Source of the DNA: Petrotoga sp. 9PWA.NaAc.5.4
GTDB taxonomy: Bacteria > Thermotogota > Thermotogae > Petrotogales > Petrotogaceae
DNA: 43,241 nucleotides
NCBI RefSeq assembly: GCF_002895485.1
Contig: NZ_AZRK01000045.1
Span: 1 to 43,241, forward strand
Direction of reading: 5' to 3'
Shown here: in pieces, positions 5,696-42,315 of the stretch
Layout: each line of letters opens with the position of its first letter
Position numbering within the stretch: position 1 is the first letter of the stretch
The notes under the pieces: generated by a model
The model's input: the letters and a program-made list of their open reading frames with translations, nothing else
What the model was told of the DNA's origin: nothing
The model's database searches: none
Made by a program: the position numbers and the translations under genes

Positions 5696-5727
5696 CCCTT
5701 TTCCTCCTCAAAAATTTTATTATATTC

Positions 5728-5928
5728 ACTTTAGAAATTCCAAAATCCTTATTATATGTATATTTTAGCGTTGATTTTTTTACAAAATACCTCCCCGCTT
5801 CTAATCCTTACTAATTCCTAATTTCTTTACCTTTTTCGGTACTTGTAGTCAAGGAAGGGGAGAGGGCTCCGCCCTGGACCCAGTTTAAATTCAAATGCTT
5901 ATTTTCTGAAAATTATCATTTCTAAACT
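5728..5928 (-). repeat. 201-bp inverted-repeat-ended element, copy A (faces sufC)
   Basis: A full-length copy of the family described in the findings. The left end is ACTTTAGAAAT; the right end is a slightly degenerate form of its inverse. The GC-rich core GGGCTCCGCCCTGGACCC starts near 5863, in DNA that is otherwise very AT-rich. It is 201 bp, the same as copy G and one less than copy K. It occupies much of the 417-bp gap between the carbonic-anhydrase-like gene and sufC. Because the best suf promoter lies upstream of it, this copy is probably transcribed as part of the suf leader. Confidence 0.85.
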
Positions 5929-5980
5929 TCTTAAGTTTTATGTTTTTATACAGTTTTTCTTTAATTACTGTTTTGATTAA

Positions 5981-6112: not shown

Positions 6113-6619
6113 TTATTTCAAAAGATATTTTTTTGAAAGATTATAATACTCTTTTGCAGAATTTTTAAGTTTTTCTATTTCTTCTTCAGTTAAGTTCCTA
6201 ACTATCCTGCCAGGTACTCCTATAACCAAACTATACGGTGGTATAATTTTATTTTCAGTTATCAAAGTTCCAGCACCTATTAAACAACTTTCACCAATTT
6301 TTGCACCATTAAGAATTATTGCACCCATACCAATAAGACAATTATCAGCAATTTCACATCCATGAATTATGGCGTTGTGCCCTACGGTTACACGATTCCC
6401 GATAATTACAGGAAAATTAGAATCAATATGTACAACACTATTATCTTGAATATTGGTATATTCACCAATATTTATAGGGCCAATATCACCTCTTAAAGTC
6501 GTATTAAACCATATACTTGAGCCTTTCCCTATTTTTACATTTCCTATAATTTGGCAATCAGGAGCCAAGAAAACATCTTCTGAAATTTCAGGGGTTATAT
6601 CATTGAATTTGTGAATCAT
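6113..6619 (-). CDS. Gamma-class carbonic anhydrase-like hexapeptide-repeat protein
   Basis: A 168-residue left-handed beta-helix protein of the gamma-CA/YrdA/PaaY family. Hexapeptide repeats run from about residue 20 to 130 (IGNVKIG, IGNRVTVG, IGMGAII, IGAGTLI). The metal-ligand histidines appear in VVHIDS near residue 65 and GHNAIIHG near 83-90. A short C-terminal helix (EEEIEKLKNSAKEYY) caps the trimer as in the family. Many members lack proven carbonic anhydrase activity, so the reaction is uncertain. It is a single gene between repeat copies A and B, with no partner to suggest a pathway. Confidence 0.85.
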   Translation of the reverse strand: MIHKFNDITPEISEDVFLAPDCQIIGNVKIGKGSSIWFNTTLRGDIGPINIGEYTNIQDNSVVHIDSNFPVIIGNRVTVGHNAIIHGCEIADNCLIGMGAIILNGAKIGESCLIGAGTLITENKIIPPYSLVIGVPGRIVRNLTEEEIEKLKNSAKEYYNLSKKYLLK

Positions 6620-6650
6620 CTATTCGATCTCTCCTCTTTAATTATATATA

Positions 6651-6853
6651 CTCATTAGAAATTCTAAACTTCACATTTTATAAATATTTCAGCGTTTAAC
6701 TTTTTACAAAATACCTCCCCGCTTCTAATCCTTACTAATTCCTAATTTCTTTACCTTTTTCGGTACTTGTAGCCAAGGAAGGGGGAGAGGGCTCCGCCCT
6801 GGACCCATTTTAAATTCAAATGCTTATTTTTAAAAAATTCTCTTTTCTAAAAT
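6651..6853 (-). repeat. Inverted-repeat-ended element, copy B (faces the carbonic anhydrase-like gene)
   Basis: Its end (CTCATTAGAAATTC) lies about 30 nt upstream of the gene start at 6619. The body closely follows copies A and K through the GGTACTTGTAGCC hairpin and the GGGCTCCGCCC core near 6790. The distal end is degenerate (TTTTCTAAAAT). Confidence 0.8.
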
Positions 6854-6869
6854 CTATAAATTATATATA

Positions 6870-7080
6870 CTCATTAGAAATTCTAAAACTCAGATTCTAT
6901 ATTAGAAAATTTACATTTTTAAAGTTCCTAACTAACATTCACTAATTATGCATCTCTTTAACTTCTTTGGTATTTATAGCCAAGAATATGCCACAACTTG
7001 TCAGACTTTCAACCTAACACAACTTTGGCAAGGACAATGGGACTTCGCTCTGGGCTCATTTTAAATTCAAAAACTTATTT
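6870..7080 (-). repeat. Diverged second copy of the element (B')
   Basis: Begins with the same ACTCATTAGAAATTC end as copy B and keeps the TTTTAAATTCAAA segment at its other end. The core has decayed (GGACTTCGCTCTGGGCTC) and carries an insertion-like stretch around 6985-7020. It looks like an old copy next to a younger one, both in the same orientation. Confidence 0.6.
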
Positions 7081-7100
7081 ATGGTATAATATTATAACAT

Positions 7101-7129
7101 AAAAAAAACCGGATCCATTTCGGATCCGG
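7101..7129 (-). terminator. Rho-independent terminator of the candidate sRNA
   Basis: A perfect 8-bp stem, CCGGATCC (7109-7116) with GGATCCGG (7122-7129), a 5-nt loop, and then eight T residues on the minus strand (7108-7101). There is no protein-coding gene ending here on the minus strand, so its presence is what points to a short transcript. Confidence 0.8.
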
Positions 7130-7180
7130 CAAGAAGGTTTGGGTTTATCTCAGGGGGATAGGGGGATCTTTCTCATTTTC
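7101..7180 (-). ncRNA. Candidate small RNA with C-rich segment
   Basis: On the minus strand a near-consensus promoter (7187-7215) is followed by about 80 nt of sequence and a strong Rho-independent terminator (7101-7129) with no meaningful ORF between. The 5' part carries two CCCCC blocks (7161-7165 and 7153-7157) in a pyrimidine-rich context that would be single-stranded and complementary to purine-rich ribosome-binding sites. A 10-codon reading frame (MKMRKIPLSP) starts near the expected 5' end but has no ribosome-binding site. No known RNA family is recognised; this is a prediction from promoter plus terminator. Confidence 0.5.
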
Positions 7181-7186
7181 ATTAAT

Positions 7187-7215
7187 ATTATAAAACAAAA
7201 TATGTTAATCTTCAA
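7187..7215 (-). promoter_or_regulatory. Promoter of the candidate sRNA
   Basis: The minus strand has TTGAAG (7215-7210), a 17-nt spacer and a perfect TATAAT (7192-7187), so the predicted start is near 7180. The stretch from about 7220 to 7470 is very AT-rich and I see no gene in it. Confidence 0.6.
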
Positions 7216-7470
7216 CATGGTTAAGTTACCTTTATATTTAATATAGTTAAAAATATGTATTCCTATGTTAATTTGACAAAATTTATCATTATAAAATTTT
7301 TGGAAATTATGCCTTTTTACAGCTGAAATAAGCTTTTTATTTTGAAATTAAGTGTCAAAAATACAGTATTTTAGTTTTAAAAATTACTTTTATAGTATTT
7401 TCTCTTTCTGTTTTCAAATTTATATATTTGTTATTAAAAATTAATATTGATAAACATAGTATTCACTAAA

Positions 7471-8021
7471 AATAAGCTTTTGAATTTAAAACGGGTCTAG
7501 GGCGGAGCCCTCTCCCCCCTTCCTTGGCTACAAGTACCAAAAAAGTTAAAAAATTCATAGCTTGTAACGATTAGATAGACACTTTAAAAACGGAGATTTT
7601 TCTGAAAATAAGCTTTTGAATTTAAAACAGGTCCAGGGCGAAGCCCTCTCCCCCTTCCTTGGCTACAAGTACCAAAAAAGTTAAAAAATTCATAGCTTGT
7701 GAGGATTAGATAGACACTTTAAAAACGGAGATTTTTCTGAAAATAAGCTTTTGAATTTAAAACGGGTCCAGGGCGGAGCCCTTTCCCCCCTTCCTTGGCT
7801 ACAAGTACCAAAAAAGTTAAAAAATTCATAGCTTGTGAGGATTAGATAGACACTTTAAAAACGGAGATTTTTCTGAAAATAAGCTTTTGAATTTAAAACG
7901 GGTCCAGGGCGGAGCCCCCCTCTACTTCGGTTGAAGCATCAACCAAATTAAAAAAATAAACAGTTACTAATTATTAGAATTATAGCGCTTTATAAAAAAT
8001 TTAAACTTAGAATTTCTAAAA
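7471..8021 (+). repeat. Tandem-expanded element, copy C (faces the PHP gene)
   Basis: Four consecutive units start at 7471, 7607, 7742 and 7878 (AATAAGCTTTTGAATTT), giving periods of 136, 135 and 136 bp. The first three units are nearly identical and each carries the GGTCCAGGGCGGAGCCC core (or a one-to-two base variant) and a GGCTACAAGTACC hairpin. The fourth is cut short after the core and followed by the right terminal end (AGAATTTCTAAAA) at about 8010-8020. The array lies about 30 nt upstream of the PHP start codon. Confidence 0.85.
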
Positions 8022-8051: not shown

Positions 8052-8714
8052 ATGCATAAAATATATGATTTTCACACACATACAATTTTAAGTGACGGAG
8101 AACTAATATGCAGCGAGCAAATAAGACATGCACAAATTCATGGATATTCAGCAATTGCTATAACAGATCATGTTGATGAATCAAATATTGATTTTGTTAT
8201 AGATAACTTGAATAAGTTTATAGAAAAAGAAGGTTCTTATTTTACTGATATAAAAATACTCGCTGGTGTTGAAATCACACATGTTCCACCTTCAATAATA
8301 GACAGTTTAGCAAAATATGCTAAAGAAAAAGGGATTCAAATTGTAGTTGTACATGGAGAAACTATTGTAGAACCTGTTATAGAAAAAACAAATTATTATG
8401 CGGTAAGGTCAAAGTATGTGGATATATTGGCTCATCCAGGATTAATTTCTGAAGAAGACGTCCAAGAAGCTGCAAAAAATAGTATTTTTTTAGAGCTCAG
8501 TGCAAGAAGAGGACACAGTTTATCTAATGGACATGTTTGCAAATTAGCCAAAAAATTTGGGGCTAAATTGTTAGTAAACAGCGATGGACATGGACCAAAT
8601 GATTTTTTAGATTATGAGTTTGCCTTTAAAATAGCTGTTTCTGCTGGATTAGATAGTCAAGAAGCGATTAGTGTTTTGAAAGACTATCCTTTAGAAATTA
8701 TTCGGAAATTATAA
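8052..8714 (+). CDS. PHP-domain phosphoesterase (histidinol-phosphatase-like)
   Basis: A 220-residue PHP-domain protein, a metal-dependent phosphoesterase fold. The N-terminal HxH is His8/His10 in DFHTHTILSDGE, followed by ITDHVDE near residue 37, VEITHVP near 73, HGE near 99, a LAHPGLIS block near 130 and NSDGHGP near 175, which together supply the family's metal ligands. This set matches short PHP proteins annotated as histidinol phosphatase or YcdX-like; there are no histidine-biosynthesis genes nearby, so the substrate is unknown. AAGGAGG precedes the ATG. It is monocistronic and its leader contains repeat array C. Confidence 0.85.
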   Translation: MHKIYDFHTHTILSDGELICSEQIRHAQIHGYSAIAITDHVDESNIDFVIDNLNKFIEKEGSYFTDIKILAGVEITHVPPSIIDSLAKYAKEKGIQIVVVHGETIVEPVIEKTNYYAVRSKYVDILAHPGLISEEDVQEAAKNSIFLELSARRGHSLSNGHVCKLAKKFGAKLLVNSDGHGPNDFLDYEFAFKIAVSAGLDSQEAISVLKDYPLEIIRKL

Positions 8715-12437: not shown

Positions 12438-12471
12438 AGCTTTTTTCCTCCTTTTAATTTATATTTTACTA

Positions 12472-12783
12472 TCTTTAGAAATTCCAAAATTCATATTTTA
12501 TAAATATTTTGACGTTTAGTTTTTTTCAAAAAATACCTTCACTACTCTAATTTTGACCAACTGACTATTTCTTTAACTTTTTCGTTACGTGTAGCTAAGG
12601 AGAGAGGAGAGGGCTCCGCCCTGGACCCGTTTTAAATTCAAAAGTTCATTTTCAGAAAAATCTCCATTTCTAAAGTGTCTATCTAATCCTTACAAGATAT
12701 AAATTTTTAACTCTTTTGGTACTTATAGCCAGAGAGGAGAGGGCTCCGCCCTGGACCCGTTTTAAATTCAAAAGTTTATTTCT
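12472..12783 (-). repeat. Element with two core units, copy D (faces fba)
   Basis: The left end CTTTAGAAATTCC is about 35 nt upstream of the fba start codon. Two GGGCTCCGCCCTGGACCC cores start at about 12611 and 12741, 130 bp apart. The distal unit runs directly into the SYLF gene, whose stop codon is at 12784-12786. There is essentially no other DNA in this 346-bp gap, so any fba promoter must be inside the element, or fba is read through from upstream. Confidence 0.85.
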
Positions 12784-13482
12784 CTATAACTCTTGTTTAT
12801 CTTTTAACTTACTATCACTAATTGCTTTTTCAATAAGTTTTATGAGTTGCTCAGCTTCTCCATCCACCTTTTTCTCTTTCAAGATCTGTTCAGGTGTAAG
12901 AGGTTGCCTATAAAAGGCTTCGTTAGCATTATCGTTTGTTCTTATGTAAGCTCCTGCTACAGAAACACCCGCATAAAATCCCTTCGAAACTGAATAAGAA
13001 TATATAGATGCCTTAAGCTTATAATCAACATCTGCAGAGAGTTGCCTTCCTAAGGGACCGGCTGAAACTCCTACAGAACCTCCTAAAGTAAAATTATTGC
13101 CCATAAATCCGTTTATACCCTCTTCGTTCATTACTACCAACACAAGAGAAGCTGATTGAACTCCTGCTTGAGCACCCCAACTTAAACCATAAATATTTAC
13201 AAAAGCAGGACCATACCATTCTCCACTTTCTGGATCTTTTCTGAGAACGATACCTTCTCCGTATTGGCCTCCCACAACGAAACCTAATTTATAAAATGTT
13301 GGGAATATGACAAGTCCCTCGGCTTGTTCTACTAATTGTAAAAAAGCTCCACTATCTGGTTTACTCAACAATTCTTCAATTGCTATTCGAGCTCCTCTTA
13401 CTGTATCTGATATCGCAGCAAAAACATTAAAAGACAACAATAAAATTAATGACATAAAAAATAAGGTTTTCCATTTTTTCAT
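12784..13482 (-). CDS. SYLF-domain (YSC84-like) exported protein
   Basis: A 232-residue protein with a classic signal peptide: KKWK then a hydrophobic run (LFFMSLILLLSFNVFA) ending near residue 23. The rest is a SYLF/Ysc84 domain, recognised from the glycine-rich repeats VIFPTFYKLGFVVGGQYGEG (near residue 53), SWGAQAGVQSASLVLVVM (near 101) and NFTLGGSVGVSAGPLGRQ (near 130). In eukaryotes the domain binds phosphoinositides; bacterial members are exported and of unknown function. It follows wecB on the same strand but is separated by 613 bp of repeat array. Confidence 0.85.
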   Translation of the reverse strand: MKKWKTLFFMSLILLLSFNVFAAISDTVRGARIAIEELLSKPDSGAFLQLVEQAEGLVIFPTFYKLGFVVGGQYGEGIVLRKDPESGEWYGPAFVNIYGLSWGAQAGVQSASLVLVVMNEEGINGFMGNNFTLGGSVGVSAGPLGRQLSADVDYKLKASIYSYSVSKGFYAGVSVAGAYIRTNDNANEAFYRQPLTPEQILKEKKVDGEAEQLIKLIEKAISDSKLKDKQEL

Positions 13483-13516
13483 TTTTTCATACCTCCTATG
13501 AATTTATATTTTACTG

Positions 13517-14093
13517 TCCTTAGAAATTCCAAAATTCATATTTTATAGATAATTTAGTGTTTACCTTTTTCGATACGCATATTGAAGGAGAGGGGGGGCT
13601 CCGCCCTGGACCCGTTTTAAATTCAAAAACTTATTTTCTAAAATCTTTATTTATAAAATGCTTATGCAATTCTAATTTTGACAAGTTAACTATTTTTTTA
13701 AATTCTTTACTATACATATCGAAGAAGAGGGAGGGGGCTCCGCCCTGGACCCGTTTTAAATTCAAAAGATTATTTTCTAAAATCTTTATTTATAAAATGC
13801 TTATGCAATTCTAATTTTGACAAGTTAACTATTTTTTTAAATTCTTTACTATACATATCGAAGAAGAGGAAGGAGGGCTCCGCCCTGGACCCGTTTTAAA
13901 TTCAAAACCTTATTTTTTGAAAATTTTCATTTCTAAAGTTTCTACTTCTTTTTTAGTCATTCTAAGTTCTAATTCTCACTAATTCTTAATTTCTTTAGTT
14001 TTTCGCTACGTGTAGCAAGAAAGAGAAGGGCTCCGCCCTGGACCCATTTTAAATTCAAAAGCTTATTTTCAGAAAAATCTACGTTTCTAAAGT
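13517..14093 (-). repeat. Tandem-expanded element with four cores, copy E (faces the SYLF gene)
   Basis: Four GGGCTCCGCCCTGGACCC cores start near 13596, 13735, 13875 and 14028, giving spacings of 139, 140 and 153 bp. The second and third units are almost identical to each other and carry a local variant of the arm (TATACATATCGAAGAAGAGG). The left end CCTTAGAAATTCC lies close to the SYLF start; the right end TTTCTAAAGT stops 2 nt before the wecB stop codon at 14096. Several small reading frames can be drawn here but they follow the repeat and look meaningless. Confidence 0.85.
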
Positions 14094-14095
14094 CT

Positions 14096-15217
14096 TTAAT
14101 TTTTATTTTTTGCCGAATCTTTGTCAAAATTAACCAAATAATTGATTATTCTTTCGCTTGCTCTTCCATCACCATAAGGATTTTCTTTATTTATCATTTG
14201 TTTATATATAGGGCCTTCTAACAATTTCATATTTCTATATACAAATTCGGTATCTGTTCCAACTAACTTTGCTATACCGGCTTCTATAGATTCTAACCTT
14301 TCCGTGGTGTTTCTTAATACTAAAACGGGCTTATTAAATGTAGCTGCTTCCTCTTGAATTCCGCCTGAATCAGTCATAATATATAAACATTTACTCATAA
14401 GAGCTAAAAATTCAGTATATTCTAAAGGATTTAAAACCATTGCATTTTCTATATTTTCCAATTCACTGTGTACTAAATCTTTGACTTTTGGATTAGGATG
14501 TACAGGATAAACTAAATATACATGAGAATTTTCTTTTAAATACATTTTAACGGCTTTTAAAACTTTTCTTATAGGCTCTCCCCAATTTTCTCTTCTATGC
14601 ATGGTGAAAAGAATATAAGTTTTATCTTTTAATTCATATTTTTGTAAAACACTTTCCATTTCATTTTTCTTAGTATTTTTTACCCATAATAAGGCATCTA
14701 TAACTGTATTCCCAGTAACAATTACTCTATTTTCATCAATTCCTTCTTTTAAAAGGTTTTTTTTCGCATTTTGGGTTGGAGCAAAATGAACAGTTGCAAG
14801 GACACTTATAAGCCTTCTATTTATTTCCTCTGGAAAAGGATCGTACATATTATTTGTTCTTAACCCTGCTTCTATATGAGCTACAGGAACTTTATAGTAA
14901 AAACTTACCAACGCTCCTATAAAAGCAGAAGTTGTATCTCCTTGGACTATCACAAAATCAAATTTATCTTTCTTAAAAATTTCATCAATTTTTTGAATTA
15001 ATCTCTGGGTTAAATCTGAAAGTGATTGATTGGGGATCATTACATTTAAATCGTAATCAGAAGTCATCTCAAATATTCTCAGCATCTGATCAAGCATTTC
15101 CCTGTGTTGAGCAGTTGTTATAACAACTACTTCTACTCCAACTTCTTTTAACCTTTTATAAATAGGTGCTATTTTTATAGCTTCTGGTCGAGTACCAAAT
15201 ATCAACCCAATCTTCAA
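14096..15217 (-). CDS. wecB: UDP-N-acetylglucosamine 2-epimerase (non-hydrolysing)
   Basis: A 373-residue WecB/MnaA-type epimerase that interconverts UDP-GlcNAc and UDP-ManNAc for cell-surface polysaccharide. It has FGTRPEAIKIAP at residues 7-18, VQGDTTSAF near 92, HIEAGLRT near 114, FPEEINRR near 128, GNTVIDAL near 168, TMHRREN near 206, and TDSGGIQEEA near 281. It begins with a TTG codon, with GGGAT upstream as a modest ribosome-binding site. There are no other polysaccharide genes in the window. It is transcribed away from tRNA-Leu. Confidence 0.94.
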   Translation of the reverse strand: MKIGLIFGTRPEAIKIAPIYKRLKEVGVEVVVITTAQHREMLDQMLRIFEMTSDYDLNVMIPNQSLSDLTQRLIQKIDEIFKKDKFDFVIVQGDTTSAFIGALVSFYYKVPVAHIEAGLRTNNMYDPFPEEINRRLISVLATVHFAPTQNAKKNLLKEGIDENRVIVTGNTVIDALLWVKNTKKNEMESVLQKYELKDKTYILFTMHRRENWGEPIRKVLKAVKMYLKENSHVYLVYPVHPNPKVKDLVHSELENIENAMVLNPLEYTEFLALMSKCLYIMTDSGGIQEEAATFNKPVLVLRNTTERLESIEAGIAKLVGTDTEFVYRNMKLLEGPIYKQMINKENPYGDGRASERIINYLVNFDKDSAKNKN

Positions 15218-15377: not shown

Positions 15378-15465
15378 GCCGGGGTGGTGGAATTGGTAGA
15401 CACGTATGGTTGAGGGCCATATGAGTTTTAAACTCGTGCGGGTTCAAGTCCCGCCCCCGGCACCA
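15378..15465 (+). tRNA. tRNA-Leu (anticodon GAG)
   Basis: An 88-nt class II tRNA with CCA encoded. The acceptor stem GCCGGGG pairs with CCCCGGC; the anticodon stem TATGG/CCATA (15405-15409 with 15417-15421) closes the loop TTGAGGG, giving anticodon GAG at 15412-15414 (reads CUU/CUC). A variable arm (GAGTTTTAAACTC region) and a T arm with GGTTCAAGTCC confirm a leucine-type long variable loop. It stands alone with its own promoter and terminator. Confidence 0.96.
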
Positions 15466-17434: not shown

Positions 17435-17468
17435 GAAAGTTCCCTCCTATTCAAAATTAATAATACTC

Positions 17469-17669
17469 ACTTTAGAAATTCCAAAACCTAAGTTTTACCA
17501 ATATTTTAGTTTTAAATTTTTTCAAAAATACCTCCATAGCTCTAATCTTCATTAATTCTTAATTCTTTACCTTTTTCGGTACTTGTAGCCAAGGAAGGGA
17601 GAGAGGACTCCGCCCTGAACCCATTTTAAATTCAAATGCTTATTTTCTGAAAATTTTCATTTCTAAAGT
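17469..17669 (-). repeat. 201-bp element, copy G (faces gcvH)
   Basis: A complete single unit, 201 bp long, with clean inverted ends ACTTTAGAAAT (17469-17479) and ATTTCTAAAGT (17659-17669). The core is GGACTCCGCCCTGAACCC, so both arms differ from the usual core. It starts about 35 nt upstream of the gcvH ATG. A TATAAT on the minus strand at 17756-17751 is a possible gcvH -10 outside the element. Confidence 0.85.
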
Positions 17670-17801
17670 ACCTAAAAATTAATAACTCTGACCAGCTTTA
17701 AATCCAAAACCTTATTTTCAGCATAAAATTTCTAATTTAAATATATAAATATTATATCATAAATTTCTAATTTAAAATTTATAAATTTTTTATTTGGAAA
17801 C

Positions 17802-17830
17802 TTGAAAGGAAACAGAAAAAATGATATAAT
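17802..17830 (+). promoter_or_regulatory. Promoter of the manganese riboswitch leader
   Basis: TTGAAA (17802-17807), a 17-nt spacer and a perfect TATAAT (17825-17830). Transcription should start near 17837, about 35 nt before the riboswitch aptamer. Confidence 0.75.
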
Positions 17831-17869
17831 TTTTTTGTTTAATAACAATTACTTATATACAATAAAAAT

Positions 17870-17956
17870 AAAAAGGGGAGTAACTCGTTCTGTACTATCG
17901 TCATAACGGCAATAGCCCGGTAGTACAGCAAGATAACTTGAGAGTGAGACCTTTAT
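17870..17956 (+). promoter_or_regulatory. yybP-ykoY manganese riboswitch aptamer
   Basis: The aptamer opens with the diagnostic AAAGGGGAGUA (17872-17882) and closes with GUGAGACCUUU (17944-17954), the two strands that form P1 and loop 1 in the yybP-ykoY family. Between them is the paired CUGUACUA / GGUAGUACAG arm with the GUCAUAACGGCAA loop. Members sense Mn2+ and control exporters including P-type ATPases, which agrees with the next gene. The 3' strand is shared with the terminator that follows, giving a clear switch: Mn2+-stabilised aptamer allows read-through, free aptamer lets the terminator form. Confidence 0.85.
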
Positions 17957-17986
17957 TCATAGGTATATGGATAAAGGTCTTTTTTG
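17947..17986 (+). terminator. Riboswitch expression-platform terminator
   Basis: A long hairpin, AGACCTTTATTCATA (17947-17961) pairing with TATGGATAAAGGTCT (17966-17980) with one U-G wobble and a GGTA loop, followed by a T-run. Its 5' arm overlaps the last aptamer strand, so the two structures exclude each other. Confidence 0.85.
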
Positions 17987-17999
17987 TATGTTCTGATCC

Positions 18000-18698
18000 T
18001 AAAAATTTTACTAACACCACCCTCCCCTGTCTTGGTACAAGTACCGAAAATGGTAAAGAAATTAAGAATTAGTAAGTATTAGATAAGGACTTTAGAAATG
18101 AGAATTTTCAGAAAATAAGCATTTGAATTTATAGTGGGTCCAGGGCAGAGCCCTTCCCCCTCTCTTTCACTACATGTAGCGAAGAAGTTAAAGAAATTCA
18201 CAGTTAGTAAAGATTAGATAAGGACTTTAGAAATGAGAATTTTCAGAAATAAGCATTTGAATTTATAGTGAGTCCAGGGCGGAGCCCTTCCCCCTCTCTT
18301 TCACTACACGTAGCTAAAAAGTTAAAGAAATTAAGAATTAGTGAGAATTATGTAGAGACTTTGGAAAATATAATTTTTCAGAAAATAAGCTTTTGAATTT
18401 ATAGTGGGTCCAGGGCGGAGCCCTTCCCCCTCTCTCTCACTACACGTAGCTAAAAAGTTAAAGAAATTAAGAATTAGTGAGAATTATGTAGAGACTTTGG
18501 AAAATATAATTTTTCAGAAAATAAGCATTTGAATTTATAGTGAGTCCAGGGCAGAGCCCTTCCCCCTCTCTTTCACTACACGTGGCGAAGAAGTTAAAGA
18601 AATTCATAGTTAGTAAGTATTAGGATTATGGAAATATCTTTGAAAAAAAAATTTAAAACTAAAAGATTGGCAAAACTTAAGTTTTGGAATTTCTAAAG
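18000..18698 (+). repeat. Tandem-expanded element with four cores, copy H (faces the P-type ATPase)
   Basis: Core units (GTCCAGGGC) start at 18138, 18272, 18408 and 18544, periods 134, 136 and 136 bp. The first two units carry an internal GGACTTTAGAAAT, showing that each tandem unit is the left two-thirds of the element including its end. A partial fifth unit lies at about 18000-18120. The right end GGAATTTCTAAAG finishes at 18698, 37 nt before the ATPase start. The whole array lies between the riboswitch terminator and the gene it should control. Confidence 0.88.
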
Positions 18699-18734
18699 AT
18701 AGTAATAAATTTTATTAATCAAGGGAGGAAAAAT

Positions 18735-26051: not shown

Positions 26052-27461
26052 TTATACCCCCTTAGTTTGTGAATTTTCTTGTTCCTCTTGTGATTCTTCT
26101 ACTTTTTGTAATCCATTTTCTAATTGATTGGAGCTCTTAGATTCTCTTATTTTTTTTATCAATGTTTCCACAAATAAAATAATTAATAATAATATTAGAG
26201 AAACTAAAAAGCCATTTATTGTTCTTAAAATACTTAAATATAAAGGCGTATGTATATGTAAAAAAGTGTTAAGTATAGATACAGGCAAAATTGCTCTAAA
26301 TGTATTCCAAATGAAAGACCTTCCTGGTAACGATGGTGTATAATAAAAGAAGTAAGATATTATCTCTTTAGTCCTTGGTCTTGCAATTAGAACCCTTTCA
26401 AAATAATCTCTTACCTTCCTTTCAAAATTTGTGACAAAAGCCCAATTTGAACTCCTTACTATGTATATTATACCTGCTATTATAACTAACAACAATAGTA
26501 CAATATCTGTTTTTCTAAATCTTATACTTTTAATTTTCTTGAAAGCATTTTTGATATCGCCTTTCTTAAATGTAATTCCTGTAAAGTCTATAAATGCTTT
26601 CAATAAAACCAAAGCCGGCAAAACGACAAGTAAAATTTTTACTCCCCTAACATTATTAAGCTTAAATATCAATAAGTTATTATATCCACTCATAAATACA
26701 AGAATTCCAAATAACAAAGAATAGCTTATAATTTTTAAAAGATTATTTTTGGAAACCCTAAAAAATATAATTATAGAAAATAATGTAGCTGCTATTGTAA
26801 AAGACCAATTATTTAAAAAAATAAAGCACAGAATATATATAATAGCAAACAATGGTACGTACGAAAATAAATTCAAAAATATTAATCCTACCCCAATGCC
26901 TGAAAAAATAAACGTCGGCTCAGAATAATTGATTGAATTAATGTTAACGGGAGTACCTAAATCTTTTTGGATCAAATTAATTAAATTTAACGTTCTGGAA
27001 TGCTCCGGAAATATAAAATACCGTATTTTTCTTTCTTTTAAAGCTCTATGAAACCTTTGAACTATCATTTCATCATCAAACTTATCTATTTCAGCCGCTT
27101 TTATATAATGAGCATACCTCATGTTGTTTAATATATCTTTGTCCAATCGATCTTTAATTTCTGTAAAATATTTATCGAAGTCGGAAAATTCCACAATGAG
27201 CACATATTTATATCTTAAAGTTAAATCTTTTAAAAAAATTATATCTTCCTCAAAACCTTGAGACTGAAAATCTTTTAGTATAGCATGATTCTCATAAGTA
27301 TAATAAAAATACCCATTATTCTCAATTATATGTAACTGACTTTCTATAGGAAGTATCGAATAAGTACTTGAATTTGCAATATCAACATATAGGGAATAAA
27401 AAAAGAAAACTATCGAAAAAATTATAGAAATTAAAACAACGTACTTTCTTATTTTTCTCAT
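26052..27461 (-). CDS. DUF5693-like polytopic membrane protein
   Basis: A 469-residue protein with an N-terminal signal-anchor helix, a soluble region (about 35-180) and then eight or more membrane helices. The soluble part contains MIVQRFHRALKERKIRYFIF near residue 133, which resembles the conserved segment of DUF5693 proteins (residues that read roughly 'RFxRAVxERxxRVLY'). I recall that family from Firmicutes near surface-polymer genes; the match is from memory. Function is unknown. The C-terminus is a charged tail. It is the middle gene of a three-gene operon after rluD. Confidence 0.65.
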   Translation of the reverse strand: MRKIRKYVVLISIIFSIVFFFYSLYVDIANSSTYSILPIESQLHIIENNGYFYYTYENHAILKDFQSQGFEEDIIFLKDLTLRYKYVLIVEFSDFDKYFTEIKDRLDKDILNNMRYAHYIKAAEIDKFDDEMIVQRFHRALKERKIRYFIFPEHSRTLNLINLIQKDLGTPVNINSINYSEPTFIFSGIGVGLIFLNLFSYVPLFAIIYILCFIFLNNWSFTIAATLFSIIIFFRVSKNNLLKIISYSLLFGILVFMSGYNNLLIFKLNNVRGVKILLVVLPALVLLKAFIDFTGITFKKGDIKNAFKKIKSIRFRKTDIVLLLLVIIAGIIYIVRSSNWAFVTNFERKVRDYFERVLIARPRTKEIISYFFYYTPSLPGRSFIWNTFRAILPVSILNTFLHIHTPLYLSILRTINGFLVSLILLLIILFVETLIKKIRESKSSNQLENGLQKVEESQEEQENSQTKGV

Positions 27462-27481
27462 TAAATTATCCCCCTATTCTT

Positions 27482-28384: not shown

Positions 28385-28431
28385 TTAAATTTAATCCTCC
28401 CAAAAATTAGAATTTTATTCCCTTTAGAAAT

Positions 28432-28579
28432 TCTAAAACTTAAGTTTTATTAATATTTTTGTTAACTACTATTCCTTTAACTTCTTCGCTGCTTGCAACG
28501 AAAAAAAAGGGAGGGCTCCGTCCTGCACCTATTTTAAATTCAAATACCTATTTTCTAAAAAAATTATCATTTCTAAAGT
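28432..28579 (-). repeat. Shortened element, copy I (faces rluD)
   Basis: Inverted ends CTTTAGAAATTC and ATTTCTAAAG are intact, but the unit is only about 148 bp and the core is changed to GGGCTCCGTCCTGCACC, with part of the middle missing. It starts about 48 nt upstream of the rluD start. Confidence 0.8.
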
Positions 28580-28650
28580 CCTTAATTATAATTACATCCA
28601 CTTTCTTTGTTTTTATTATAACACTTTTTATATAGAAAATTATAAAGTAA

Positions 28651-28675
28651 AATTCCCCTTCACAGAAGGGGAATT
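28651..28675. other. Perfect inverted repeat between divergent genes
   Basis: AATTCCCCTTC / GAAGGGGAATT, an 11-bp stem with a 3-nt loop, lying between divergent rluD and the GNAT gene. The minus strand continues with UUUUACUUUAU and could be a weak terminator; the plus strand has no U-tract. No gene would end here, so it could also be an operator or a small-RNA end. A TATAAT is found on the minus strand at 28726-28721 without a good -35. Confidence 0.4.
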
Positions 28676-28757
28676 AAAACCTGCCACATCTCTCAAGAGT
28701 TTAATTAAAAATAAAATTTTATTATAATTTAAAATTGAGGTAAAATATTGATAAAGG

Positions 28758-29360
28758 ATGATTCGAATTATGGATATAAAAAAAGCAACTATTAGTGATA
28801 ATAAGAATTTTGTCGAACTTTTTCTAATCTCTGCCCCATTTTTTCCGTTGATTTTTGGTCAAAATACAAAGAAAACGCTAAATAATTTATTTGTAACTAA
28901 AAGCAATCTTTTTAGTTACCAACATGTTTGTTTCGCAAAGAAAGAGGAAGAAACCCTTGGAATGATATTATGCTATAATTGGGAAACAAAAAATAGAGAA
29001 AATCTAAGGACTGGGCATCTTATGTTTAAAAACTTAGGAATTATTTTTTTCAAAAGTATAATTCCACTGGTTAAACTAAATAAAGTTATCGGGAAGATAA
29101 GTAAGGAAGATTTTTATATCAGCAACATAGCGATTTATGATTTATTTAGAGGGTTAGGTACGGGCAAGCAATTAATTTTTAAAGCGGAAGAAACTGCAAG
29201 AAAATCTGGAAGCAAAAACGTTATTTTAGATGTTGAAAAGGAAAACATAAAAGCTATTAATTTTTATAACAACATAGGATTTAGAAAAATAACTGAATCA
29301 ACTATAAAAACTCGGAATTGTATTCTGAGTTTTTATAGGATGAAAAAACAATTAATTTAG
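28758..29360 (+). CDS. GNAT-family N-acetyltransferase
   Basis: A 200-residue GNAT protein. The acetyl-CoA binding motif A is seen as ISNIAIYDLFRGLGTGKQLI near residue 112, followed by the beta-5/alpha-4 region NVILDVEKENIKAINFYNNIGF. The N-terminal part, TISDNKNFVEL, is typical of a small acetyltransferase. The acceptor is unknown. The start could be the ATG at 28758 or the one 12 nt later at 28770, where AAAGGATG has better spacing. It lies alone upstream of repeat copy J and lpdA. Confidence 0.82.
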   Translation: MIRIMDIKKATISDNKNFVELFLISAPFFPLIFGQNTKKTLNNLFVTKSNLFSYQHVCFAKKEEETLGMILCYNWETKNRENLRTGHLMFKNLGIIFFKSIIPLVKLNKVIGKISKEDFYISNIAIYDLFRGLGTGKQLIFKAEETARKSGSKNVILDVEKENIKAINFYNNIGFRKITESTIKTRNCILSFYRMKKQLI

Positions 29361-29563
29361 GTATTTTAGAAATGAGAATTTTCAGAAAACAAGCATTTGA
29401 ATTTAAAACGGGTCCAGGGCGGAGCCCTTCACCTCTCTTTCGCTACACGTAGCGAGAAGGTTAAAGGAATAGAGAATAGCTCAAAATTAGAATTGTGGAG
29501 GTATTTTATAAAAAGTTAAACGCTAAACTATTGATAAAATATGAATTTTATAATTTCTAAAGT
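29361..29563 (+). repeat. Element, copy J (faces lpdA)
   Basis: Single unit in plus orientation with ends TTTAGAAAT and AATTTCTAAAGT. The core is GGTCCAGGGCGGAGCCC. It contains a perfect hairpin CGCTAC / GTAGCG at 29441-29454, a compensatory variant of the CGGTAC / GTACCG stem of copy K. It occupies almost the whole gap between the GNAT stop and the lpdA ribosome-binding site. Confidence 0.85.
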
Positions 29564-29595
29564 GAGTAAATTTTAAAAAAGAGGAGGAAGCGTAG

Positions 29596-30951
29596 ATGTA
29601 TGATAGCGTAATAATCGGATCAGGACCTGGAGGTTATGTTTCAGCAATAAGATTATCACAATTAGGCAAAAAAGTCGCGGTTATTGAAAAAGAAGATTTA
29701 GGCGGAACGTGTACTAATAAAGGATGTATCCCTACCAAAGCTTTATTAACTTCTGCCCATTTATATGAGAAAATCAATACAGAAGCTAAAAAATTTGGAG
29801 TAAAGGTTGAAAATATTGATTATGATTTAAAAGAAATAATCAAACACATGAACAAAGTAGTTTTGCAGTCCAGAAAAGGTATAGAATATTTATTTAAGAA
29901 AAATAACGTAGATTTAATCAAAGGTGTTGCTGAGATTATCGATAAAAATCACATTAAAGTCTTAAATCAAACAATAGAAACAAAGTATATTATTTTAGCT
30001 CATGGATCTCAACCTGTAATTTTTACTCCTTTTGATAAAATAGAAGGTATCTGGACAAGCGACGACGTTTTTAAAATGACAGAACTTCCAGATTCAATTT
30101 TAATAGTCGGGGGAGGAGTTATCGGAATAGAAATAGCTACTCTTTTTTCTAATCTTGGCAAAAAAGTTTACATAGTTGAGTTGTTGGATCATATTCTACC
30201 AAATGAAGATCCAGATGTTGCAGAAGTTGCCAAAAAATCTTTAATGAAAAAAGGTGTAGAAATATTTGAAAAGTACAAAGTAACTAATGTAACAAAAAAC
30301 AAAGAATCCTACATATCTAAAGTAGAAAAAGATGATGAAAGTAAAGAAATAGAAAGCTCAAAAGTATTGATTGCAGTCGGTAGAAGACCTCTCATCCCTA
30401 AGGATATCAAAGAATTGGGTGTTACTATTGAAAAAGGAGTAAAAACCGATCTATCAATGAAAACAAATATAGAAAATGTGTACGCTATTGGAGACATAAG
30501 AGCACATATAATGTTGGCACATGTTGCAATGTACGAGGGGATAGTAGCTGCTCATAATATTGCAGGTGAGAGTAAAAAAATGGATTATAGCGCAGTTCCT
30601 AACGTTATATTTTCAAACCCAGAAATAGCAACAGTTGGGTTGAAAGAAAAAGATGTTGATTTAGAAAAAGTAATTATATCAAAATTCCCAGTATCTGCCA
30701 ACGCCAGAGCCAGAACAATGGAAGAAAGAGAAGGATTTGTAAAAATAATCGCTGACAAAGAAACCAAAAAAGTTTTAGGTGCATCAATTGTTTCACCCAA
30801 CGCTACCGATATGATTATGGAAGGTGTCTTGGCAATAAAATACGGAATGACCGCATCTCAATTAGTAGATTCTATTCATCCACATCCAACTTTAACAGAA
30901 AGCATTTTAGGAGCTGAAGAAGGTATAGAAGGACTGACAATACATATTTAA
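29596..30951 (+). CDS. lpdA: Dihydrolipoyl dehydrogenase
   Basis: A 451-residue FAD-dependent dihydrolipoyl dehydrogenase (E3). FAD-binding IIGSGPGGY is at residues 6-14, the redox disulfide Cys39/Cys44 is in GGTCTNKGC, and NAD-binding GGGVIGIEIATL is near 172. The second FAD motif, VYAIGDI, is near 294, and the active-site His430/Glu435 pair is in HPHPTLTES near the C-terminus. It reoxidises lipoyl groups; the only lipoyl protein in this window is GcvH, so glycine cleavage is the likely partner. No E1/E2 genes of a keto-acid dehydrogenase are adjacent. The ribosome-binding site is GAGGAGG. Confidence 0.94.
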   Translation: MYDSVIIGSGPGGYVSAIRLSQLGKKVAVIEKEDLGGTCTNKGCIPTKALLTSAHLYEKINTEAKKFGVKVENIDYDLKEIIKHMNKVVLQSRKGIEYLFKKNNVDLIKGVAEIIDKNHIKVLNQTIETKYIILAHGSQPVIFTPFDKIEGIWTSDDVFKMTELPDSILIVGGGVIGIEIATLFSNLGKKVYIVELLDHILPNEDPDVAEVAKKSLMKKGVEIFEKYKVTNVTKNKESYISKVEKDDESKEIESSKVLIAVGRRPLIPKDIKELGVTIEKGVKTDLSMKTNIENVYAIGDIRAHIMLAHVAMYEGIVAAHNIAGESKKMDYSAVPNVIFSNPEIATVGLKEKDVDLEKVIISKFPVSANARARTMEEREGFVKIIADKETKKVLGASIVSPNATDMIMEGVLAIKYGMTASQLVDSIHPHPTLTESILGAEEGIEGLTIHI

Positions 30952-41958: not shown

Positions 41959-41990
41959 CTAAAAACCTCCCTAAATAAAGTTGCATATCC

Positions 41991-42192
41991 ACTTTAGAAA
42001 TTCCAAAATCCTTATTATATGTATATTTTAGCATTGATTTTTTTACAAAATACCTCCCCACTTCTAATCCTTACTAATTCCTAATTTCTTTACCTTTTTC
42101 GGTACTTGTACCGAAGGAAGGGGGAGAGGGCTCCGCCCTGGACCCATTTTAAATTCAAATGCTTATTTTCTGAAGATTATCATTTCTAAAGT
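41991..42192 (-). repeat. 202-bp element, copy K (faces the arabinose operon)
   Basis: The cleanest full copy: ends ACTTTAGAAAT (41991-42001) and ATTTCTAAAGT (42182-42192), core GGGCTCCGCCCTGGACCC near 42128, and a perfect hairpin TTCGGTAC / GTACCGAA at 42098-42115. Its end lies 32 nt upstream of the GH51 ATG. The remaining DNA of the 357-bp gap (about 42193-42315) is AT-rich with no gene; a TATTAT-like -10 is possible there, but I see no convincing -35. Confidence 0.88.
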
Positions 42193-42315
42193 CCCTATAA
42201 AATTGCATCCATTTTAGTCTATAATAGAAATTTACTAATCCCACTATTGCAAATTCTTCTTATCTTTTCAAAAAAATGAGACTTTCTAAGTCAAAAATTC
42301 AACATTCAAGAATAA

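Follow-up and report, generated by a model that had tools for sequence, protein, structure and literature searches.

The analysed stretch of DNA, hereafter the window, comprises 43,241 nucleotides of contig NZ_AZRK01000045.1 of Petrotoga sp. 9PWA.NaAc.5.4 (genome G000). A predicted small RNA (sRNA) unit lies in some 1.4 kb of intergenic DNA bounded by a hexapeptide-repeat gene and a PHP-domain gene. Its parts, the flanking genes and one possible target are as follows.

6113-6619, minus strand: hexapeptide-repeat gene, the nearest ORF on one side of the unit
7101-7180, minus strand: predicted sRNA transcript of about 80 nt (start placed by the −10 box, stop at the last U of the run)
7101-7130, minus strand: intrinsic terminator, perfect stem CCGGATCC/GGATCCGG (stem-loop 7130-7108) followed by a U run (8 T at 7108-7101)
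7141-7168, minus strand: core GAUCCCCCUAUCCCCCUGAGAUAAACCC, conserved in family alignments, with two C-boxes (CCCCC at 7165-7161 and CCCCC at 7157-7153)
7146-7160, minus strand: mini-hairpin UAUC (7160-7157)/GAUA (7149-7146) with a CCCCUGA loop, from the predicted fold and pair counts
7187-7215, minus strand: sigma-70-type promoter, TTGAAG (7215-7210), 17-nt spacer, TATAAT (7192-7187)
7204-7271, minus strand: candidate operator, in which four [GT]T[AT]AC half-sites follow one another at exact 21-bp steps (7271-7267, 7250-7246, 7229-7225, 7208-7204)
8052-8714, plus strand: PHP-domain gene, the nearest ORF on the other side
27462-27477, minus strand: G-rich leader AUAGGGGGAUAAUUUA, abutting the start codon of a DUF5693 membrane protein gene (26052-27461, minus strand); possible target

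The original prediction described a promoter, C-boxes and a terminator on the minus strand with no gene among them, and every part lies where it had been placed; the window's ORF list contains no frame of at least 80 amino acids at the unit. The promoter matches the consensus at 10 of 12 positions, a top score common to four sites between 6000 and 8500. This interval contains 19 promoter-like sites (12.5 expected by chance) and one terminator-like site (1.2 expected), so that the two signals by themselves are within chance expectation locally. The predicted fold of 7180-7102 (−18.1 kcal/mol, z −2.73) owes its stability mostly to the terminator, and in predicted folds the C-rich motif falls in loops or single strand, with the C-runs mostly unpaired.

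Local signals could arise by chance, conservation could not, and it is because the unit is conserved that we consider it real. The sRNA gene almost certainly exists at 7101-7215 on the minus strand, as a free-standing predicted transcription unit with its own intrinsic terminator. On comparative sequence grounds its existence and anatomy are well supported; its targets and mechanism we infer.

The window also contains dispersed and tandem intergenic repeats (about 135 bp) in both orientations, at 5722-5930, 6646-6854, 7447-7947, 12447-14098, 17444-18705, 28396-29598 and 41966-42203, which combine GGGCTCCGCCCTGGACCC with G-rich GAAGGGGGAGAGGG-like parts.

Conservation and structure of the RNA family

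The genome of the window contains one copy of the sRNA and is the only representative of its genus in the family comparison. The first relative, locus L019, was found via the PHP gene, and there too the sRNA unit stands in front of that gene, with 92% mean column identity to the window over promoter, core and terminator. L019 belongs to a metagenome-assembled contig titled “Bacillota bacterium”; since its sRNA stretch (884-1000) is identical to that of G003, which belongs to the window's family, this label is probably wrong.

A family search with the L019 unit gave a match in each of 21 genomes, with best E-values from 3.7e-56 to 8.0e-4. The original prediction had pointed to a search of close relatives, whose lack of the sequence would speak against it; the sequence is present in all 21. 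In the alignment of 20 family loci, GAUCCCCCUAUCCCCC(C)(C)UGA(G/A)AUA is almost invariant, promoter and terminator are both included, and the two promoter boxes are recognisable in most loci. A covariance model built from these 20 loci (R1) was then applied to the class with the stricter filters of Infernal. It matched 94 of 103 genomes at E ≤ 0.01, leaving nine without a match; the matches cover 35 of 38 genera and, among the 82 better genomes, 76. The best E-value is at most 1e-5 in 79 of the 103 genomes (counted by reading the results table); several third and fourth copies scoring above 1e-5 may consist of a terminator alone. The orphan promoter-terminator unit first proposed as a candidate small RNA is thus kept across the class. 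One matching genome, G093, encodes a RuvB identical over 333 residues to PDB 1in4, which we take to be the T. maritima protein; the class searched is therefore Thermotogae. The family of the window is probably Petrotogaceae, which the NCBI taxonomy assigns to Petrotogales.

The structure of the family was assessed on 55 of the 57 class loci (L094 and L095 omitted), from which 35 sequences were chosen by hand for pair counts, with family f5 and weak or atypical copies set aside. In these 35 sequences the letters of the terminator stem have been replaced wholesale and the stem kept: six of its seven pairs are changed on both sides. Compensated changes amount to 57 cells with both sides altered, against 16.0 in shuffles. 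Over the whole structure, 96.4% of cells are paired, against 49.5% at best after sliding; the covariation score of 0.418 compares with 0.142 for shuffles and with 0.116 or less after sliding. The terminator stem thus co-varies while the core is almost invariant.

The core itself comes in several forms. It is mostly GAUCCCCCUAUCCCCCUGAGAUAAACC in the window's family (f1), whereas in families f3, f10 and f11 it reads A(C)CCCCCUAUCCCCCUUGAGAUACACCCCCCAC and contains a third C-run; many Thermotoga-like members have three C-runs, compared with the two C-boxes of the window's sRNA. Members of f5 retain CCCCCCUAUCCCCCUUAA and have a poor second half. The length of a C-run is 5, 6 or 7 among relatives, which excludes a conserved reading frame. 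Indeed, a candidate peptide across the core (M-R-K-I-P-L-S-P-stop) was rejected as a chance frame in the window that is not kept in relatives.

The UAU/AUA pairs of the mini-hairpin are present in 35 of 35 sequences, and in 30 of them the closing pair is C-G or U-G. Because UAU and AUA are invariant, they are neutral on the pairing, neither for nor against it; as modelled, the mini-hairpin is conserved and presents the second C-box. Predicted folds extend it to CCUAUC/GAUAGG in L110 and to CUAUCC/GGAUAG in L108. In the L108 fold the C-box hairpin is further enclosed by an outer GAGUGC/GCACUC stem, and L109, L140 and L137 resemble L108 by eye, a subtype spanning families f2 and f8. Genus g7 has second copies of the sRNA; the three that were fetched (L102-L104) carry UAUCCUCCUUAA / UAUCCUCCUUAAAAUA, which contains CCUCCUU, the anti-Shine-Dalgarno sequence of 16S rRNA.

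A phage origin was considered and rejected: an 18-nt core pattern gave two matches in viral contigs, both lacking a terminator, with scores of 11.9 and 10.7 bits. Together with the E-values, this viral scan takes the place of a negative control for the family.

Pairing with G-rich start regions and competing explanations

Our preferred reading, to which we assign a probability of about 0.68, is that 7101-7215 encodes an autonomous, trans-acting, Hfq-compatible sRNA that blocks mRNAs with GGGGG-type Shine-Dalgarno sequences. A regulator acting on the 21-bp-spaced array would set its transcription. At its 3′ end the RNA would form a terminator hairpin tailed by U residues, a shape compatible with Hfq, which is above the Pfam cut-off in 98 of 103 class genomes, including that of the window. 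The small hairpin and single-stranded stretches would expose the C-boxes. These may be read as imitating the 16S anti-Shine-Dalgarno sequence with U replaced by C (CCCCCUU vs CCUCCUU), a change that would make their pairing with GGGGG-type Shine-Dalgarno sequences perfect. Paired C-boxes would block ribosome entry and reduce translation of a subset of mRNAs; in Petrotogales the likely targets would be the toga proteins Omp-alpha and Omp-beta, together with other envelope and transport proteins.

The first line of evidence on targets is the frequency of the complementary motif. AGGGGG at 3–9 nt from ATG exceeds its reversed-pattern control in G003 (75 vs 44), G012 (120 vs 51) and G015 (162 vs 30). 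There is no enrichment in G000 (83 vs 123), where the control may have been swollen by G-rich repeats. In 800-kb samples, GGGGG precedes the start of 57 of 732 ORFs in G012 and 92 of 721 in G015. Among 231 reciprocal best pairs between these samples, a GGGGG Shine-Dalgarno sequence is retained in 7 of 18 ortholog pairs, with a background of 29/231 (Fisher p 0.0029). GGAGG is retained too (50 of 93 pairs), and retention is therefore not peculiar to GGGGG. By our own reading of the sequences, the GGGGG-retaining set includes Omp-alpha, a solute-binding-like protein, two ABC ATPases, an aldehyde-ferredoxin-oxidoreductase-like protein and a response regulator.

The second line of evidence is exact complementarity, on which the target statistics rest in place of an RNAduplex ranking; the latter yielded long loose duplexes, and its coding-control mean in G012 was distorted by an artefact value. 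Complementarity of at least 8 nt at positions −25 to −1 occurs in 30 of 716 ORFs in G015, against 5 and 3 in the coding and upstream controls, while G012 has 8 of 718, with 2 and 4 in its controls. As to the suggestion of the original prediction that the sRNA could target translation broadly, start-region complementarity in the two genomes sampled is raised in G015 and only weakly in G012. With shuffled cores, matches of at least 7 nt reached a maximum of 91 and 55 genes in these genomes, compared with 74 and 31 for the real core. Shine-Dalgarno pairing by the C-boxes is plausible in that it fits these data, which carry no specificity in their statistics. Three observations favour it indirectly: the paralog that resembles the anti-Shine-Dalgarno sequence, the GGGGG Shine-Dalgarno sequences kept between genomes, and the Omp-alpha leader conserved in families f1 and f2. 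The sRNA probably acts by pairing with G-rich start regions.

Individual genes provide a third line of evidence. The toga protein Omp-alpha, an SLH protein by Pfam, has the Shine-Dalgarno sequence GGGGGU(A) in 20 of 20 f1 loci from eight genera and in all five f2 loci read, out of nine f2 genomes with a match. Outside these two families, GGGGG was found at none of 23 Omp-alpha-like loci, read by eye with start codons chosen by the analyst; GGAGG or GGGAGG stands there instead. The predicted duplex between Omp-alpha and the sRNA reaches −18.3 in G000 and −17.1 in G012, compared with −9.2 and −8.4 for seed-changed controls; in G015 it is −15.5, no better than the control at −16.0. We would put the presence of toga proteins among the sRNA targets of Petrotogales at slightly under an even chance. 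For the DUF5693 gene of the window, AUAGGGGGAU before the start is a perfect complement of AUCCCCCUAU in the sRNA, with a duplex energy of −22.3 kcal/mol that weakens to −11.7 in the seed-changed control; a similar gene in G003 has AGGGGGAU before its start.

Several Omp-alpha leaders of family f3 have a GUGGGGGG stretch further upstream, complementary to CCCCCCAC of their sRNA. In four f3 loci (L213, L215, L225 and L228) an inverted repeat GTGGGGGG...CCCAC, likewise complementary to CCCCCCAC, lies about 40–50 nt before the Omp-alpha start.

An alternative that we consider improbable is that the RNA is a decoy, its C-runs sequestering a protein with affinity for C-rich sequence, such as Rho, a KH-domain protein or a ribosomal protein, with no mRNA pairing. 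Rho and KH proteins do bind C-rich RNA, predicted folds leave the C-runs largely unpaired, and a protein could tolerate their variable length. However, the letters between and after the C-runs (UAU; UUGAGAUA in Thermotoga-like members) are conserved equally with the runs, and in the paralog CCCCCU has become CCUCCU, thereby matching the anti-Shine-Dalgarno sequence.

Still less probable, in our opinion, is that the RNA is the sponge or partner of G-rich RNA, for instance of transcripts from the intergenic repeats that contain GGGGGAGAGGG. The window has many repeats with parts resembling GAAGGGGGAGAGGGCTCCGCCC, and these, if transcribed, could pair with the C-boxes; a G-rich sponge of C-rich sRNAs, RosA, is known in Bacillus subtilis (available part of PMC8216469). 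Against this stands the class-wide distribution of the sRNA; the repeats were surveyed in the window.

The genes around the sRNA differ between genera. It is flanked by the PHP gene, rpoD and the hexapeptide gene in genera g1 and g3, and by the PHP gene and other genes in g4; a different gene lies downstream in g2 and g5, the downstream gene is on the opposite strand in g6, and g7 and g8 have yet other neighbours (names beyond the Pfam-matched ones are our own reading of the sequences). Because neighbouring genes change while the RNA stays, we regard it as autonomous and not as a leader. A cis-acting leader or attenuator, with signal-dependent stop or read-through at the terminator into the downstream gene, is accordingly very improbable: a gene with its own Shine-Dalgarno sequence does start directly behind the terminator in G001 and G004, and a gamma-carbonic-anhydrase-like gene lies about 60 nt downstream in g3, but the downstream gene varies between genera and is sometimes reversed with the RNA unchanged, and the predicted folds contain no alternative antiterminator pairing.

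Relation to known small RNAs

At the gathering cut-off, Rfam (release 15) recognised a single RNA in the whole window, a tRNA at 15378-15462. At E ≤ 10, the region 7051-7290 gave 10 matches, all far under their cut-offs. One of these, mmgR (RF00519, listed as suhB) at 7093-7165 on the minus strand, was rejected as a chance-level match (17.1 bits where the cut-off is 41; E 0.25).

According to the available parts of PMC8216469 and PMC4132741, Shine-Dalgarno-binding C-rich sRNAs occur in Bacillus, Listeria and Staphylococcus. The present sRNA resembles RoxS (RsaE), FsrA and CsfG of B. subtilis in having C-rich regions; RoxS and FsrA apply theirs to mRNA targets, RoxS to Shine-Dalgarno sequences (PMC8216469, available part). 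It differs from them in belonging to another phylum with no Rfam match at E ≤ 10, in its UAU-joined tandem C-boxes, in its own candidate operator array and in its class-wide range. With LhrC of Listeria monocytogenes, whose redundant UCCC-motif sites bind a G-rich sequence upstream of the start codon (PMC4132741, available part), it shares several redundant C-rich sites per molecule. Unlike LhrC, it has adjacent C-boxes, no Rfam sequence match and mostly a single main copy in the family genomes.

MicA and RybB are the outer-membrane-protein sRNAs of enterobacteria. If the proposal for Omp-alpha holds, the Thermotogae sRNA would be like them in limiting abundant outer-envelope proteins with Hfq, albeit through a different seed; to our knowledge they have no sequence in common with it.

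In our literature search, no publication was recognised as describing the C-rich sRNA of Thermotogae. The available part of a T. maritima transcriptome study reports 12 (in its abstract) or 13 (in its section 9) putative ncRNAs, termed a paucity (PMC3636130); the Thermotoga copy may therefore already be listed there as an unnamed transcript. Thermotogae are credited with one sRNA in a 2022 review (PMC9029176, available part). The family is real, deeply conserved and apparently unnamed: its probable kind, a C-rich RNA directed at Shine-Dalgarno sequences, is known, and the member is new. Base-pairing sRNAs of deep-branching thermophiles are little known. A class-wide core, together with candidate targets and a candidate operator, makes the post-transcriptional control of this lineage directly testable in thermophiles that are harmless and in culture, and offers a new family to RNA libraries.

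The promoter array

A 21-bp grid of [GT]T[AT]A[CT]-like elements precedes the sRNA in 19 loci from seven genera, with partly degenerate elements in g3, g4 and g7; in G000 the first bases of its four elements are 7271, 7250, 7229 and 7208. Arrays of at least three elements are rare, with one in the window (the sRNA promoter), two in G012 and three in G015 (800 kb each), where other spacings give 0–4. A family scan for three-member arrays at exact 21-bp spacing matched 15 of 21 genomes. The scan reached the sRNA promoter in g1, g2, g4, g5 and g6 and in G002, G016 and G008 of g3; the g7 promoter, whose array is degenerate, was not matched. Other places found by the scan were scattered and about as numerous as with the reversed-pattern control. 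That the sRNA promoter is the recurring intergenic place points to a dedicated regulator of the array.

One could go further and suppose that Shine-Dalgarno spelling (GGGGG vs GGAGG) decides the regulon of the class-wide sRNA, that the CCUCCUU paralog addresses the canonical spelling, and that a dedicated regulator of the four-fold 21-bp array runs the Petrotogaceae main copy; we regard this combined proposal as speculative and, as a whole, rather unlikely.

The array recalls PhoP/PhoB sites, which are direct repeats. In the Thermotoga-like genome G093 (L138), the sRNA has a PHO4 phosphate transporter gene on its 5′ side and an SDH-type protease/RNase HII pair on the other, with a DUF47 (PhoU-like) gene nearby. 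Array and PHO4 gene together suggested phosphate control of the sRNA, an idea that was dropped because the pstS promoters of the family have a different box. Most pstS upstream regions of the family (L352-L374) share CTTAAYATTTCTTAAYAT, without the 21-bp [GT]TWAC grid, and this sequence is likely to be the Pho box of the lineage.
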